This document shows, piece after piece, positions 7,326 through 36,139 of a stretch of 64,000 nt of DNA (its first letter is position 1; every line of letters starts with the position of its first letter). Where the stretch lies: contig NZ_QFYQ01000001.1 of the NCBI RefSeq assembly GCF_003254475.1, positions 1,612,001 through 1,676,000 on the forward strand. Direction: 5' to 3'. The DNA is from Phenylobacterium soli (GTDB taxonomy: Bacteria > Pseudomonadota > Alphaproteobacteria > Caulobacterales > Caulobacteraceae). Under the pieces are notes generated by a model, which was not told the DNA's origin, did not search any database, and saw nothing but the letters and a program-made list of their open reading frames with translations. The translations under genes and the position numbers were made by a program.

Positions 7326-8059
7326 GCCGCCATGCCTTCGGCGAGGGCCTTGGAGACCGCCTCGACGGTGCGGCGGAAGCCGACGGTGGTGCGGAAGCCG
7401 GCCGGACGCGGGAGGGGGCCCTCCACCCCGACCTCGGCCACGATGCGCCCGGGGCCGTTGCTCATGACGATGACGCGGGAGGCCATGTAGACGGCCTCCT
7501 CGACGTTGTGGGTGACGAAGACGATCGCCGGCTGCAGGCCCTGCCAGAGCTTCTGGATGTCGTCGGCGAGCGCCCGGCGGGTGATCTCGTCGAGGGCGGC
7601 GAAGGGCTCGTCCAGGAGCAGCAGGCGCGGCTCGGTGACGAGGGCGCGCGCCAGGGAGACGCGCATGGCCATGCCGCCGGAGAGCTGGGCCGGACGGGCC
7701 GTCTCGGCGCCGGCGAGGCCGACGCGGGCGAGCGCGTCGGCGGCGCGGCGACGGGCCTCCTCGGGCCGCACTCCGCCGAGCTCGAGCGGCAGGGAGACGT
7801 TGGCCCGGGCGCTGAGCCAGGGCGCCAGGGTCGGCGCCTGGAAGACCACCGCCGTCTCGCCGCGCTCCGGCGAGCGGCGGACCGTGCCGCAGGTCGGCTG
7901 TTCGAGCCCCGCGAGCAGGCGCAGCGCCGTCGACTTGCCACAGCCCGAGGGGCCGACGAGCGCCACGATCTCGCTCTCGCGGATGTTGAGGGTGAACGGA
8001 CCCAGCGCGCGGCCGCGCGCATAGTCCACCTCCACCTCGGCGAGGGCGGCGACGGTCAT
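7322..8059 (-). CDS. ABC transporter ATP-binding protein, NitT/TauT type
   Basis: A 245-residue ATPase that powers the importer. Walker A is 'GPSGCGKST' near residues 36-44, the signature is 'LSGGMAMRVSLARA' near 132-145, Walker B is 'LLLLDEPFAALD' near 151-162, and the switch His is in 'IVFVTHNVEEAVY'. The signature has Met where many relatives have a Gln (usual LSGGMRQR), a minor deviation. Its start overlaps the stop of the binding-protein gene by ATGA and its stop overlaps the start of the permease gene, so translation of the three is likely coupled. Confidence 0.94.
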   Translation of the reverse strand: MTVAALAEVEVDYARGRALGPFTLNIRESEIVALVGPSGCGKSTALRLLAGLEQPTCGTVRRSPERGETAVVFQAPTLAPWLSARANVSLPLELGGVRPEEARRRAADALARVGLAGAETARPAQLSGGMAMRVSLARALVTEPRLLLLDEPFAALDEITRRALADDIQKLWQGLQPAIVFVTHNVEEAVYMASRVIVMSNGPGRIVAEVGVEGPLPRPAGFRTTVGFRRTVEAVSKALAEGMAA

Positions 8060-9069
8060 TTGGCGGCGGTCGGCGCGGGCAGGAACTGCAGGGTGTAGGC
8101 GGCCTTGTAGCCCATGTCCTTGGGATAGACGCCGGCGCCGGACGCCATGTCGAAGAAGCTTTTCCAGCGGGCGTCGGTCATCGCCCCGACGCCGAGCGTC
8201 TTGGCCTCGGCCCCGTCGACGATGCCATAGGCCTTCATCTTCTCGCGCGCCTGGGCCAGCACGTCGGCCGTCATCTCCGGATTGTCCTTCATGATCAGGG
8301 CGTCGGCGGGCTTGGGATCACCGTAGAGGTAGTCGCGCCAGCCCTTGGCCGAAGCCTCGACGAAGGCCTTCACCGCGGCGGGGTTGGAGGCGATCAGCTT
8401 GTCGGAGGCGAGCACCATGGCCGCGTAGCCGGGATAGCCCTCGTCGGCCAGCAGGAAGACCTTGGGCCTGAGGCCCGACTGCTTCTCGATGGTGTAGGGT
8501 TCGGACGTCAGGTAGCCCTGCTGGGCGACGCGCTTGTCGGCCAGGAACGGCGCGGAATTGAAGGTGTACTTGCGCACCTGCTCGTCCTTGAAGCCGAACT
8601 TCGCCTTCAGCCAGACCCAGAAGTCGCCGATGGCGGCGTCCGAGAGCAGGATCGGGTGGCCCCTGAGGTCGGCGATCGAATTGATGCCCTGGTCGGGGTG
8701 GACGATGAGGACCTGCGGGTCCTTCTGCATGAAGGCGGCGACCGCCTTCACCGGGACCTTCTGGCGGGCGAGGTTCATCACCAGGAAGGAGTTGGAGCCG
8801 TCGCCCATCTCCACCGCGCCGGAGGCGACGAGCTGGGAGACGTTCACGCCGGGGCCGCCCTGGATCAGGGTCACGTCGAGCCCGCGCTTGGCGTATTCGC
8901 CCTCGGCGAGCGCCTCGTAGAACCCGCCGTGCTCGGCCTCGGCCCGCCAGTCGGTGGCGAAGCGGATAGCGGTGCGCTGGCCGGGGCCCGGCGCGGCCTC
9001 CTTCTTCTGCGGCGAACAGGCGGCGAGCAGGCCGATGGCGGCCAGCAGGGCCGGGCGCAGAGCTTTCAT
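8056..9069 (-). CDS. ABC substrate-binding lipoprotein, NMT1/THI5-like
   Basis: A 337-residue periplasmic binding lipoprotein. The start is taken at the ATG at 9067-9069, giving MKALRPALLAAIGLLAACS with a lipobox whose Cys is residue 18; the open frame upstream lacks such a signal. The mature N-terminus 'IRFATDWRAEAEHGGFYEAL' and 'GLDVTLIQGGP..N' are typical of the NMT1/THI5-like group, which includes binding proteins for pyrimidine thiamine precursors (ThiY), riboflavin (RibY), nitrate and alkanesulfonates. The AEHGGFY form is closest to the ThiY/RibY side, but the ligand cannot be fixed from sequence alone. A 480-base structured leader or RNA gene precedes it. Confidence 0.9.
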   Translation of the reverse strand: MKALRPALLAAIGLLAACSPQKKEAAPGPGQRTAIRFATDWRAEAEHGGFYEALAEGEYAKRGLDVTLIQGGPGVNVSQLVASGAVEMGDGSNSFLVMNLARQKVPVKAVAAFMQKDPQVLIVHPDQGINSIADLRGHPILLSDAAIGDFWVWLKAKFGFKDEQVRKYTFNSAPFLADKRVAQQGYLTSEPYTIEKQSGLRPKVFLLADEGYPGYAAMVLASDKLIASNPAAVKAFVEASAKGWRDYLYGDPKPADALIMKDNPEMTADVLAQAREKMKAYGIVDGAEAKTLGVGAMTDARWKSFFDMASGAGVYPKDMGYKAAYTLQFLPAPTAAK

Positions 9070-9147
9070 GGACGAGATCCCCCACGACGTCGAAGCGGCG
9101 GAGGGTAGGGCGGTCCGGCGGCGCTTGGAAGAGCGCCCAAATAGCAA

Positions 9148-9183
9148 GAGGGCGGCGCATCGGTTTCCCGCTGCGTCGCCCTC
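9148..9183 (-). terminator. Terminator-like hairpin at the 3' end of the structured region
   Basis: The stem pairs GAGGGCG with CGCCCTC and continues as CGCA with TGCG after one mismatch; its apex is the CGG-GAAA-CCG hairpin. On the minus strand it is followed by TTGCTATTTG, a loose T-rich stretch. It ends 78 bases before the ABC binding-protein start, so it could end an independent RNA or act as an attenuator. Confidence 0.45.
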
Positions 9184-9267
9184 TCATACAGATCCGTTGG
9201 GGGATCTGCGTCGATAGGCCAGGTGCGATTTCGGTTCGCGGGTCGCCCCGCTGGTTTTCAGTCGCAT
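9184..9267 (-). CDS. Possible 27-residue leader peptide inside the structured region
   Basis: A minus-strand ATG at 9265-9267 follows a GGAAGGG ribosome-site-like sequence at about eight bases and opens a 27-codon frame ending in TGA at 9184-9186. The product is very basic, beginning MRLKTSGATREPK and ending RRRSPNGSV. Codons are not like those of the neighbouring genes, and the frame runs through the hairpins described for this region, so it may be coincidental. The same frame is open further upstream to a TTG at 9456. Confidence 0.25.
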   Translation of the reverse strand: MRLKTSGATREPKSHLAYRRRSPNGSV

Positions 9268-9456
9268 CCGGGTTTCCCTTCCAGGCGAGTTCCGGGTCGC
9301 CCCGGTTCTGCACCCTTCGAAGAAACCTCCGCTCGCTTGTTTGGATCGGTTTCCCGCTCCGCCCTGCGCCGCAGTTCCTCTCGGCGACTTGACGTTCCCA
9401 CCGAACCCGTTATGAGGCAAGCGCCCGACCTCGCCCCGGTGTGGGGAAGCCGTCAA

Positions 9457-9476
9457 AACAGTGTGAATGAACTGTT
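9457..9476. promoter_or_regulatory. Inverted repeat AACAGT-N8-ACTGTT
   Basis: Two perfect 6-base half-sites around an 8-base spacer lie in the AT-richer part of the uup/ABC gap, just upstream (minus-strand sense) of the structured RNA region. It could be an operator for that transcript. No regulator can be named. Confidence 0.3.
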
Positions 9477-9527
9477 AACGATTGGCGGATGGCGGGCTGT
9501 TTCTCCTGAAAATTCAAAGCGCTCGAT

Positions 9528-9536
9528 TTATCCACA
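9528..9536 (+). promoter_or_regulatory. Consensus DnaA box TTATCCACA
   Basis: One exact 9-base DnaA box in the intergenic region, 16 bases after the uup stop codon. No cluster of boxes, AT-rich unwinding element or origin gene is nearby, so this is not an origin; it could be a regulatory or titration site, or chance. Confidence 0.4.
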
Positions 9537-9551
9537 GGAAAGCCGCGCCGC

Positions 9552-11363
<1,812 letters not shown>

Positions 11364-33634: not shown

Positions 33635-36139
33635 TCAGGCGAACACCCAGTCCGATCCCGGCGTCAGGCTCGAGGCGACCACATGGTCGAGGGTCGTCAC
33701 CAGGACCGCGGAGCCGGGACCAGACCCGTCCGCGTCGAACAGCACCCGCGTGTCGCCGGCGCCGTCGTCCTGGAAGAGGATGTGCCCGTCCGCCAGGGGG
33801 TTGTTCCCGGCGTAGCCCGCCGCGGCGAAGACGCCGCGCAGGTCGAGCACGTCGGTTCCGGCCGTGAAGTCGGTGACGTGGCCGGCCGCGGTCGGCAGGC
33901 GCGAGAACTCGAACACGTCGCGCCCCGTGCCGCCGGTGAGCGTGTCCGCCCCGAGGCCCGCATGCAGGATGTCGTTGCCGGCCCCGCCGTCGAGCGAGGA
34001 GGCCGCGTCGTTGGCCCGCAGGTCGTTGTTGAGGCCATTGCCGGTGAGGCTCTGGGCGCCCGATCCTTTCTGGACGCCGTTCTCGACGTTCGAGGTCAGC
34101 GTGTAGCTGGTGTCGTAGGACCAGACGGTGTCGACGCCGGCGCCAGTCTTTTCCGTCACCGTGTCTGTCGAGACGTAGATCGCATAGGTGTCGTCGCCGG
34201 CCCCGCCGCTCATCGAGTGGTACTGGCCGTGGCCGTCCAGCAGGTCGTTGCCGGAGGTGCCGGTCAGGATGCCGCGCTTGCCGGTCGAGATGGTGGTCGT
34301 CCAGGCGCCGCTGAGCGGCAGGGTGAAGGGCTCGACATTGACGATCGCGGGCGCCGGCGGCGGCGGCGGGGGAGGCGGCGGCGGAGGCGGTGAGGCCGGC
34401 GGCGGCGGGCTGACCGCCCCGCCGAACAGGTCCGCCGAGGTCAGGCCGGCGGCGCTGACGCCGTCGAGGTGGACCACGCTAGAGCCCCAGGCGTCGGCCG
34501 AGCCGGACCCGTCGGTGTCGTAGATCACCCAGGTCCCGGAGCCGTCGTCATAGAGCTTCACATAGTGGTCGGCGATCGGGTCCGCGCCGGCGTAGCCGCT
34601 GGCGCCGAACAGGGCCGAGAAGTCGAGGCGGTCCTCGCCGACCGTGAAGTCGGCGATGTGGTCGCCCACCCACGGCACGCTCTTGAAGGCGAAGACGTCG
34701 GCGCCGGCGCCGCCAGTCATGGTCTCGCCGCCGCCGGTGCTGGCGGTCAGGGTGTCTGCGCCGCTCGTGCCGGTGAAGCCGGTGGAGGTGGTGGGCGGCG
34801 GCGGAGAGGTCGTGGTCGGCGGGGGCGGCGAGGTCGTGGTGGGCGGCGGCGAGACCGCCACATAGCCGTCCGCGGCGACCTGGAAGGTGTTGGCGGTGGA
34901 GAAGGTGCTGGCGGCCGTCTGGCCGGCCGCGGTGTTGACCAGCAGGTTGGCCGAGGTCAGGCCGACGTCGGTGACGCCCTGCAGGTCGACCACGAAGGTC
35001 GCATAGGGGTTGGCGGTGGTCGCGTGGCCGTCGGGATTGACGAGGACGTTGTAGCCGCCGTGGCCGTCGGCCGCGAGGACCACGTAGCCGGCCGCGATCG
35101 GGTCCGAGCCGGTGTAGGTCGGGTAGAGGGCGTGCAGGTCGAGCTTGTCGCTGCCGACCTGGAAGTCGGTGATGCGGTCGCCGCTCCACGGCAGCTTGCC
35201 GAAGACGTACGTGTCGTGCCCCGTGCCGCCGGTCATGGTCTCGCCGCCCTGCAGGCTGGCGGTGAAGAGATCATCCCCGCCGGTGCCGACGAGGGTGGCG
35301 CCGCCGGTGGCGGTGAAGGTCTGGCCCGCGCCCGTCGAGGTCTCGGGGGTGTAGGTGTAGGGGTTGGAGTCCCAGGCCTTGATGTAGTCGATCAGCATCT
35401 GGCCGGGGAAAGGCGTGGTGGCGTCGACGTTGCCGCCCCAGCCGCCGCCCAGCGCCAGGTTGGCGATCATGTACATCGGCTTGTTCAGGTCCGCCGGGGT
35501 GACGACCTGGTAGACCGGCTTGTTGTCGAAGTACCAGGTGATGTGGTCCGGCTCCCAGTCCACGGCGAAGGTGTGGTAGCCGTTCGACATGTCGGCCACG
35601 ACGCTGCCCACGCCGCTGGAGGTGTGCGAGCCGGTCTCGTTGGTGTGGACGGTCGTGTAGAGGGTGCTCGGGTCCTTGCCGAGAACCTCCATGATGTCGA
35701 GCTCCGGCGGCCAGGAGCCGTCCTTGGGCATCAGCCAGAAGGCGGGCCAGAAGCCCTGGCCGGCCGGCAGCTCAGCCTTCATCTCGAAGTAGCCGTAGGT
35801 CTGGCTGAACGAGTGGTTCGTCTCGATCATGCCCGAGGTGTACTGGTAGCTGCCGAGCGCCGGCAGGCCGGGGTCGGTGTAGCCCAACAGCGGCGCGATC
35901 GCCGGATCCACCTTAGCCGCCGTGAGGGTGAGGATCCCGTTGTTGACGGTCCAGGGGGTGACCGAGGCGGTCGGGGCGTAGTTGGCGTTGATGTACCACT
36001 CCTGCTCGCCGTTGCTCGGCAGCGAGCCGCCGTTCCCGTTCCACGGGCGGAAGGCGAAGGTGGTGTCCCAAGTCCCGGTCGAGCCGTTCCAAAGGCTCAG
36101 GGAATTGAAGTCGTCGCTGAACGTCAGGGTCGCCGGCAT
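33635..36139 (-). CDS. GH16 beta-glucanase with RTX calcium-binding repeats
   Basis: An 834-residue exported glycanase. The GH16 domain (about 1-275) has the catalytic E-x-D-x-x-E: E146, D148 and E151 in 'PELDIMEVLG', next to 'FWPAFWLMPKDGSWP'. Such enzymes cut beta-1,3 or beta-1,3-1,4 glucans. Three RTX/haemolysin-type calcium modules follow, each with a 'GGETMTGG.G.D.(Y/F).F...PW.GD.I.DF..G.D.LD' core; Pro/Thr-rich and poly-Pro linkers separate them. The final module has 'LDGGAGNDILHAGLGADTLTGG'. No N-terminal signal peptide is present, as expected for type I secretion by a C-terminal signal. It resembles the ExsH-type succinoglycan glycanase in layout, so secreted polysaccharide trimming is likely. 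Confidence 0.92.
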   Translation of the reverse strand: MPATLTFSDDFNSLSLWNGSTGTWDTTFAFRPWNGNGGSLPSNGEQEWYINANYAPTASVTPWTVNNGILTLTAAKVDPAIAPLLGYTDPGLPALGSYQYTSGMIETNHSFSQTYGYFEMKAELPAGQGFWPAFWLMPKDGSWPPELDIMEVLGKDPSTLYTTVHTNETGSHTSSGVGSVVADMSNGYHTFAVDWEPDHITWYFDNKPVYQVVTPADLNKPMYMIANLALGGGWGGNVDATTPFPGQMLIDYIKAWDSNPYTYTPETSTGAGQTFTATGGATLVGTGGDDLFTASLQGGETMTGGTGHDTYVFGKLPWSGDRITDFQVGSDKLDLHALYPTYTGSDPIAAGYVVLAADGHGGYNVLVNPDGHATTANPYATFVVDLQGVTDVGLTSANLLVNTAAGQTAASTFSTANTFQVAADGYVAVSPPPTTTSPPPPTTTSPPPPTTSTGFTGTSGADTLTASTGGGETMTGGAGADVFAFKSVPWVGDHIADFTVGEDRLDFSALFGASGYAGADPIADHYVKLYDDGSGTWVIYDTDGSGSADAWGSSVVHLDGVSAAGLTSADLFGGAVSPPPPASPPPPPPPPPPPPAPAIVNVEPFTLPLSGAWTTTISTGKRGILTGTSGNDLLDGHGQYHSMSGGAGDDTYAIYVSTDTVTEKTGAGVDTVWSYDTSYTLTSNVENGVQKGSGAQSLTGNGLNNDLRANDAASSLDGGAGNDILHAGLGADTLTGGTGRDVFEFSRLPTAAGHVTDFTAGTDVLDLRGVFAAAGYAGNNPLADGHILFQDDGAGDTRVLFDADGSGPGSAVLVTTLDHVVASSLTPGSDWVFA

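Follow-up and report, generated by a model that had tools for sequence, protein, structure and literature searches.

The locus examined here raises the question of what occupies the minus strand between two protein genes of the window, as we call the whole 64,000-nucleotide stretch of DNA that was analysed: a leader of the gene that follows, a part of the transcript that precedes it, or an RNA gene in its own right. The original prediction, made for the interval 9148-9460, had described a highly structured RNA-like region that ends in a strong hairpin and lies between uup and an ABC importer operon. Its placement was accurate. Along the minus strand, a uup-type ABC-F gene (9552-11363) is followed by the RNA unit and then by genes for an NMT1-like binding protein (8056-9069), an ABC ATPase and a permease, and the last hairpin, P9 (9146-9185), closes the conserved unit about 72 nt ahead of the importer start codon. 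Judged on its sequence and that of its relatives, the minus strand of 9141-9385 is very probably a stand-alone gene of a structured non-coding RNA of about 245 nt. The features of the locus are as follows.

9552-11363, minus strand: uup-type ABC-F gene, upstream neighbour (ABC_tran, ABC_tran_CTD; adjoins 53 of 85 copies)
9440-9490, minus strand: upstream region, a box array in relatives and degenerate here (GTTAACAG, TTCATTCACAC, CTTCCCCACAC; motif counts in 85 copies)
9418-9420, minus strand: predicted -35 element TTG(C) (TTG occupies -35 to -33 in all 85 distinct copies)
9392-9397, minus strand: predicted -10 element GAACGT (all 85 distinct copies have A at -11 and T at -7)
9141-9385, minus strand: predicted non-coding RNA, about 245 nt (folding z = -4.48, conserved block, covariation)
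9377-9383, minus strand: 5' strand of the closing helix P1 (alignment covariation and fold)
9329-9374, minus strand: GNRA-capped arm P2/P3 with hairpin P3, CGG-GAAA-CCG, at 9343-9360 (alignment, loop count, fold)
9271-9327, minus strand: GNRA-capped arm P4/P5 with hairpin P5, GGG-GCGA-CCC, at 9292-9305 (alignment, loop count, fold)
9220-9270, minus strand: GNRA-capped arm P6/P7 with hairpin P7, GGG-GCGA-CCC, at 9238-9251 (alignment, loop count, fold)
9212-9218, minus strand: 3' strand of P1 (alignment covariation and fold)
9188-9209, minus strand: hairpin P8, CAGAUC...GAUCUG, with loop CCCCCAAC (alignment, covariation, fold)
9146-9185, minus strand: GNRA-capped hairpin P9 with apex CGG-GAAA-CCG at 9157-9174, terminator-like without a U tract (alignment, loop count, fold)
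8056-9069, minus strand: NMT1/THI5-like substrate-binding protein of an ABC importer, downstream neighbour outside the RNA unit (family search; near 43 of 85 copies)

The interval 9148-9460 proved to be composite, with 9148-9385 lying within the RNA and 9386-9460 corresponding to the promoter and the region upstream of it. Over its full length the minus strand gave a folding z of -2.86 (1 of 100 shuffles as good), and since the plus strand was nearly as stable (z = -2.57, 0 of 100 shuffles as good), the fold of this interval alone is little proof of an RNA. The trimmed unit 9141-9385, by comparison, folded on the minus strand with z = -4.48 and none of 200 shuffles as good, in line with the high degree of structure that had been proposed, and its centroid structure was identical to the minimum-free-energy fold. 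All four hairpins predicted earlier (the apices of P3, P5, P7 and P9) are present in that fold. Because a plain consensus promoter scan called no promoter at the locus and P9 lacks a U tract, we infer both the start and the end of the RNA, the 5' end being placed at 9385 and the 3' end at about 9141-9146. The tail after P9 reads UUGCUAU, and a terminator scan called no minus-strand terminator at the locus.

A second, diverged copy was found in the same genome, where two matching blocks span 294 nt behind a gene read as rnd (ribonuclease D) and before one read as an acyltransferase, both names being taken from translations. In a DNA-only search of 60 genomes, 31 matched, namely the genome itself and 30 of 35 genus-mates, against 0 of 24 genomes from other genera of the order. 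An exact pattern from the 3' part matched 58 stretches in a named collection, all titled Phenylobacterium or something vaguer (Caulobacteraceae, Caulobacterales, Alphaproteobacteria or Proteobacteria bacterium), and a similar exact pattern was present in 13 of 24 Phenylobacterium genomes compared with 0 of 125 other genomes of the family. One of the searches covered 30 chosen genomes. The covariance model R1 gave full-length matches in all 24 Phenylobacterium genomes; altogether it matched 58 of 149 genomes, many of those outside the genus only through short P9-like hairpins, which we excluded from the members. A further model, R2, leaves out the terminator-like hairpin and begins at +1. It matched 69 of 249 family genomes, 54 of them Phenylobacterium and 15 from a sister genus (g32), two of these 15 being weak (G140 and G236, E about 0.001); among the genomes listed, two genus-mates were without a match. 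Two matches were present in 31 of the 54 Phenylobacterium genomes, the second one in G272 being a weak 102-nt piece.

Beyond these groups the signal faded. R2 matched only the genome itself in a class-wide sample of 289 genomes, and in an order-wide sample of 299 genomes 15 genomes of the family matched; neither sample yielded a convincing match outside the family, and a 36-nt order-wide match in another family (E = 0.009) was taken as chance. Three further genera, g16, g28 and g31, gave weak full-length R1 matches of 54, 44 and 46 bits, and R2 found no match in these three or in g13. The bodies downstream of uup in these four genera contain 2 to 7 GNRA hairpins per 700 nt, where about 1 is expected from the window average. 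By inspection, the g28 locus L187 seems to hold a longer version of the RNA, in which 7 GNRA hairpins fall within 700 nt and AAGCAGGCGGA-like spacers recur, giving the impression of a multiplied module, and at the g13 locus L190 the promoter and start box resemble those of Phenylobacterium ahead of a longer body without an R2 match. The predicted RNA appears to be carried by most of the Phenylobacterium genomes examined and by some relatives, often in two copies.

These relatives allowed covariation to be followed between homologues. Alignment A1 comprised 32 of 34 prepared copies (L023 and L031 omitted), A3 48 of 67 matches after omission of near-duplicates and the most divergent copies, and A4 46 of the 48 in A3, leaving out L037 and L116 with their long inserts; of the 97 loci chosen for A5, 96 matched at E up to 1e-8, giving 85 distinct rows, and the only locus that failed this limit was L066 (P. 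deserti), a weak match of 43.1 bits. Among harmless isolates, Phenylobacterium aquaticum KACC 18306 (locus L062) scored 138 bits, and Phenylobacterium sp. J367 and J426 scored 94 and 86 bits. Compensatory changes were found in 54 of 75 pairs in a sequence-only alignment of 48 copies and in 42 of 51 pairs in a model-fitted alignment of the 85 distinct copies. It had been proposed that the repeat hairpins covary internally; the hairpins are real, but their likeness within one molecule is not decisive, and it is the covariation between homologues that counts. Standard pairs filled 85.0% of cells in the 48-copy alignment against 32.4-44.9% with partners slid (87.1% against 28.8-47.1% for the 85 copies), and 318 G-U cells compared with 135 A-C cells favour the minus-strand reading, both comparisons being tilted toward the structure since it was derived from those sequences and on that strand. 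None of 500 shuffles of the 48-copy alignment scored as high on any of five measures.

Plain compensatory counts ignore kinship, and we therefore devised a phylogeny-aware test in which each column retains its count of changes along a tree, the trees being built from the alignments under test. Restricted to the proposed pairs, it gave E < 0.05 for 9 of 75 pairs (48 copies) and 10 of 51 pairs (85 copies). The passing pairs of the 51-pair set lie in P2, P4, the inner part of the P4/P5 arm, P5, P6 and P7, and those of the 75-pair set in the same helices minus P4 and plus P8 and P9. When all column pairs entered a stricter version of the test, no pair reached E < 0.05 in either alignment; with the 85 copies, the strongest 6 of 19,110 column pairs all fell within the structure, as did 18 of the strongest 60.

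The shape common to the copies was recovered repeatedly. Five subsets folded separately led to broadly one plan, in which P1 encloses the arms P2/P3, P4/P5 and P6/P7 and is followed by P8 and P9. Conservation extends from the fixed -35/-10 box through P9. Among 48 copies a GNRA loop caps P3 in 40, P5 in 46, P7 in 36 and P9 in 41, and the loop sequences of these four hairpins swap within the GNRA class from copy to copy. Counting GNRA-capped hairpins with 3 bp or more, the window copy has five, compared with an average of 0.35 per 245 nt for the window as a whole; over 85 copies the mean is 4.00 (range 2 to 6), compared with 0.52 after mononucleotide shuffling. In P8, seven of the eight stem pairs show compensatory change, and the loop CCCCCAAC, usual in Phenylobacterium copies, is substituted in several other clades while the stem covaries.

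A protein-coding origin of the conservation was considered and dropped. The copy lengths do not come in threes (14/18/16 over the three remainders in 48 copies), which argues against coding, and Pfam returned no family for the two tested reading frames that overlap the RNA. That the unit acts as DNA, as a repeat, a mobile element or a protein-binding site, would agree with the nature of the upstream boxes, which are DNA motifs, and with the richness of the region in hairpins. We consider it scarcely credible, given the excess of G-U over A-C cells (318 and 135), the variation of the loops inside the GNRA class and the fact that no genome has more than two R2 matches, with copies mostly in one of two constant locations; on the count of matches a mobile repeat was rejected.

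Upstream of P1 the alignment of the 85 distinct copies contains what is likely a promoter. The TTG at -35 to -33, the A at -11, the T at -7 and a G at +1, the first base of P1, are fixed in all 85, which makes an own promoter at a conserved distance likely; the copies are related, so that 85 of 85 does not amount to 85 independent cases, and the A and T are covered by model R1, one of the means by which some copies were found, whereas the TTG lies outside it. Of 29 family loci, 8 carry the start-box pattern downstream of uup, including loci in genera g13, g16, g28 and g31, whose copies are outside the alignments used for counting but whose sequences had already been seen when the pattern was written, and it is absent from the part of these loci before the end of uup. 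Within the window its only two occurrences, both on the minus strand, are at 9385 and at an unrelated position, 58422.

The promoter bears directly on whether the RNA could instead be released from, or form a 3' element of, uup and rnd mRNAs, shielding or attenuating them without a promoter of its own. Its genomic position fits such an origin, as the 85 distinct copies have, on the same strand and within 1.2 kb upstream, uup in 53 cases, rnd in 20 and neither in 12, so that one of the two genes precedes 73 copies, and the failure of the consensus scan to call a promoter fits it as well. Paralogues are often paired, one behind uup and the other behind rnd. The constant spacing of the TTG, A, T and G positions, seen in all 85 copies and again in the further genera, speaks against it, however, as do the 12 copies with neither gene within 1.2 kb, even if in some of them uup or rnd lies slightly beyond that distance. 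We regard an origin from these mRNAs as improbable and prefer a separately transcribed RNA.

The same survey of neighbours weighed on the idea that the region is a ligand-sensing leader. In the window the unit does lie on the same strand as the importer operon and directly upstream of it, and counting only matches of at least 55% identity, a binding-protein gene follows within 600 nt in 43 of the 85 distinct copies. These 43 comprise 42 uup-linked copies, no rnd-linked copy and one of the 12 with neither gene; the gene is absent within 600 nt at 11 of 53 uup-linked and at all 20 rnd-linked copies, and with the identity limit lowered to 35% it was still absent beside L010, L014, L026, L033, L108, L124, L126, L127 and L133. 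In addition, the conserved unit closes with a strong hairpin ahead of the gene, and no Rfam riboswitch matched. With the importer gene near only 43 of 85 copies and the copies lying mostly behind uup or rnd, the unit is not tied to the importer; the proposed leader function was not borne out, and a cis-acting leader or riboswitch of the operon is highly improbable.

On the far side of P9, a convergent reading frame seems, by eye, to stop with a TAG inside the conserved CTTGCTAT tail at loci L123 and L125, and at L118 such a frame ends slightly ahead of this tail. With a convergent frame ending at or near the tail, the final hairpin may serve both sides.

We compared the unit with described RNAs. 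Scanning 8000-11000 of the window with Rfam release 15 at E up to 5 returned a single match of 15.5 bits (gathering score 42.5), which lies outside the RNA; ten related loci gave no match at the gathering score and four gave none at E up to 1. Conserved, covarying and without an Rfam match, the unit has stood up as the new structured RNA that had been suspected, and it appears to be a so far undescribed one with an intricate fold. The genome has its one match to the 6S RNA model (RF00013) elsewhere and above the cut-off, at G000:C1:944494-944655, and its one alpha-type tmRNA match at G000:C1:1767088-1767447; since both occur elsewhere, the RNA is neither a missing 6S RNA nor a missing tmRNA. 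It shares with 6S RNA the character of a stand-alone structured bacterial RNA of similar size, but 6S RNA is shaped as one long hairpin whereas the Phenylobacterium RNA has a multi-arm GNRA architecture and no Rfam match. Several similar hairpins in one RNA are also the mark of CsrB-type sequestering RNAs, which carry GGA in their loops; a CsrB-like sponge was rejected, as the loops here are mostly GNRA and not GGA.

OLE, GOLLD, ROOL and raiA had a conserved complex fold and no known function at their discovery, and the Phenylobacterium RNA resembles them in both respects. Compared through the Rfam scan, it differs from them in matching no Rfam family, in being confined to one bacterial family in the samples searched and in being often paired behind uup and rnd. 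To our knowledge, only a small number of large, strongly structured RNAs of unassigned role have been described from bacteria, and some of them proved important once they were studied. The present RNA matters for its presence in nearly every sampled Phenylobacterium genome, its frequent duplication, its predicted start and its defined fold outside Rfam, features that would open its function to direct test.

Small RNAs of the same bacterial family include GsrN and CrfA/SisA-D (PMC5869019, PMC12559287). As far as the available parts of these papers describe them, GsrN homologues typically lie near general stress response genes (PMC5869019) and SisA-D are members of the alphaR8 family (PMC12559287); by these descriptions they are set apart from the Phenylobacterium RNA, with which they have neither place nor Rfam match in common. 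Among the matches listed from the main texts of open-licence papers, no description of the RNA was found. The main text of PMC6429828 makes no mention of Caulobacter, Phenylobacterium, uup or rnd, and that of PMC2864571 none of Caulobacter, Phenylobacterium, uup or Caulobacterales.

How would such an RNA work? A housekeeping-type promoter of its own would drive transcription from 9385, the first base of P1, to a point after P9. The separate promoter, the closed multi-arm fold, the frequent duplication and the changing neighbours point to action in trans. One form of this, a stand-alone RNA that base-pairs with mRNAs through a seed in the 5' stretch AGAGG(A/G)AC or in the C-rich loop of P8, seems rather unlikely to us. 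Both stretches are conserved in most aligned Phenylobacterium copies, and Caulobacter GsrN uses a C-rich loop (PMC5869019); set against this, the AGG of the 5' stretch sits paired in P1 in the predicted fold, the P8 loop is replaced in several clades though its stem covaries, and the tail lacks the U-rich character seen in Hfq-binding RNAs. The interchangeable GNRA caps and freely changing stems suggest instead that shape has been selected more than sequence, which would suit an RNA that binds a protein or itself. Our guess is that GNRA hairpins set on a closed junction equip the molecule to hold a protein, as a scaffold or by sequestration, and not to sense a ligand; this protein-binding role is put forward tentatively, as plausible and somewhat short of probable.

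The region upstream of the promoter offers a handle on how output might be set. Between -104 and -55 it contains direct repeats of YTNTCCAC(A/C)G, 11-12 bp apart and nearly all in one orientation. In 85 copies TNTCCAC was counted 72 times in the forward orientation and once in the opposite one at -130 to -40, a stretch picked after the sequences had been read, and at least once in 59 copies; equal-length downstream stretches gave 0 and 1, and the 64-kb window 18 on both strands. The CCAC/TCAC cores peak at intervals of 11 to 12 bp, at -104/-103, -93/-92, -82/-81, -71/-70 and -59. The TCCACA boxes resemble DnaA boxes, and their phasing looks suited to binding by a single factor along one side of the helix. 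We take TTNTCCACA to be close to a DnaA box, and it is present upstream in only 18 of 85 copies. Elsewhere in the genomes the boxes do not tell which factor binds, as tandem TCCACMG in eight genomes occurred at 21 places (3 of them at promoters of the RNA) compared with 26 for a backward-pattern control, and six inspected of the other 18 places had no common theme.

A factor bound to the phased boxes may, as a guess, set the output of the RNA, and control by DnaA through these predicted boxes is a hypothesis that the array makes concrete and cheap. There is a likeness here to CcnA of Caulobacter crescentus, also a Caulobacterales RNA with DnaA or DnaA-like boxes at its gene; as described in PMC8959179, CcnA is 182 nt long and lies in the replication origin, whereas the Phenylobacterium RNA stands behind uup or rnd. 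Taken as one proposal, the idea that DnaA at the TCCACA boxes couples transcription of a family-specific RNA to the replication cycle, and that the GNRA scaffold of this RNA serves a partner protein, is decidedly doubtful. If it were true, cell-cycle control in Phenylobacterium and its kin would include an additional layer of paralogous RNAs, one that may have escaped notice in studies of Caulobacter crescentus should that species be without the RNA.

Elsewhere in the window, on the minus strand at 34589-34680, ARAGORN called a tRNA with an unresolved two-base anticodon.
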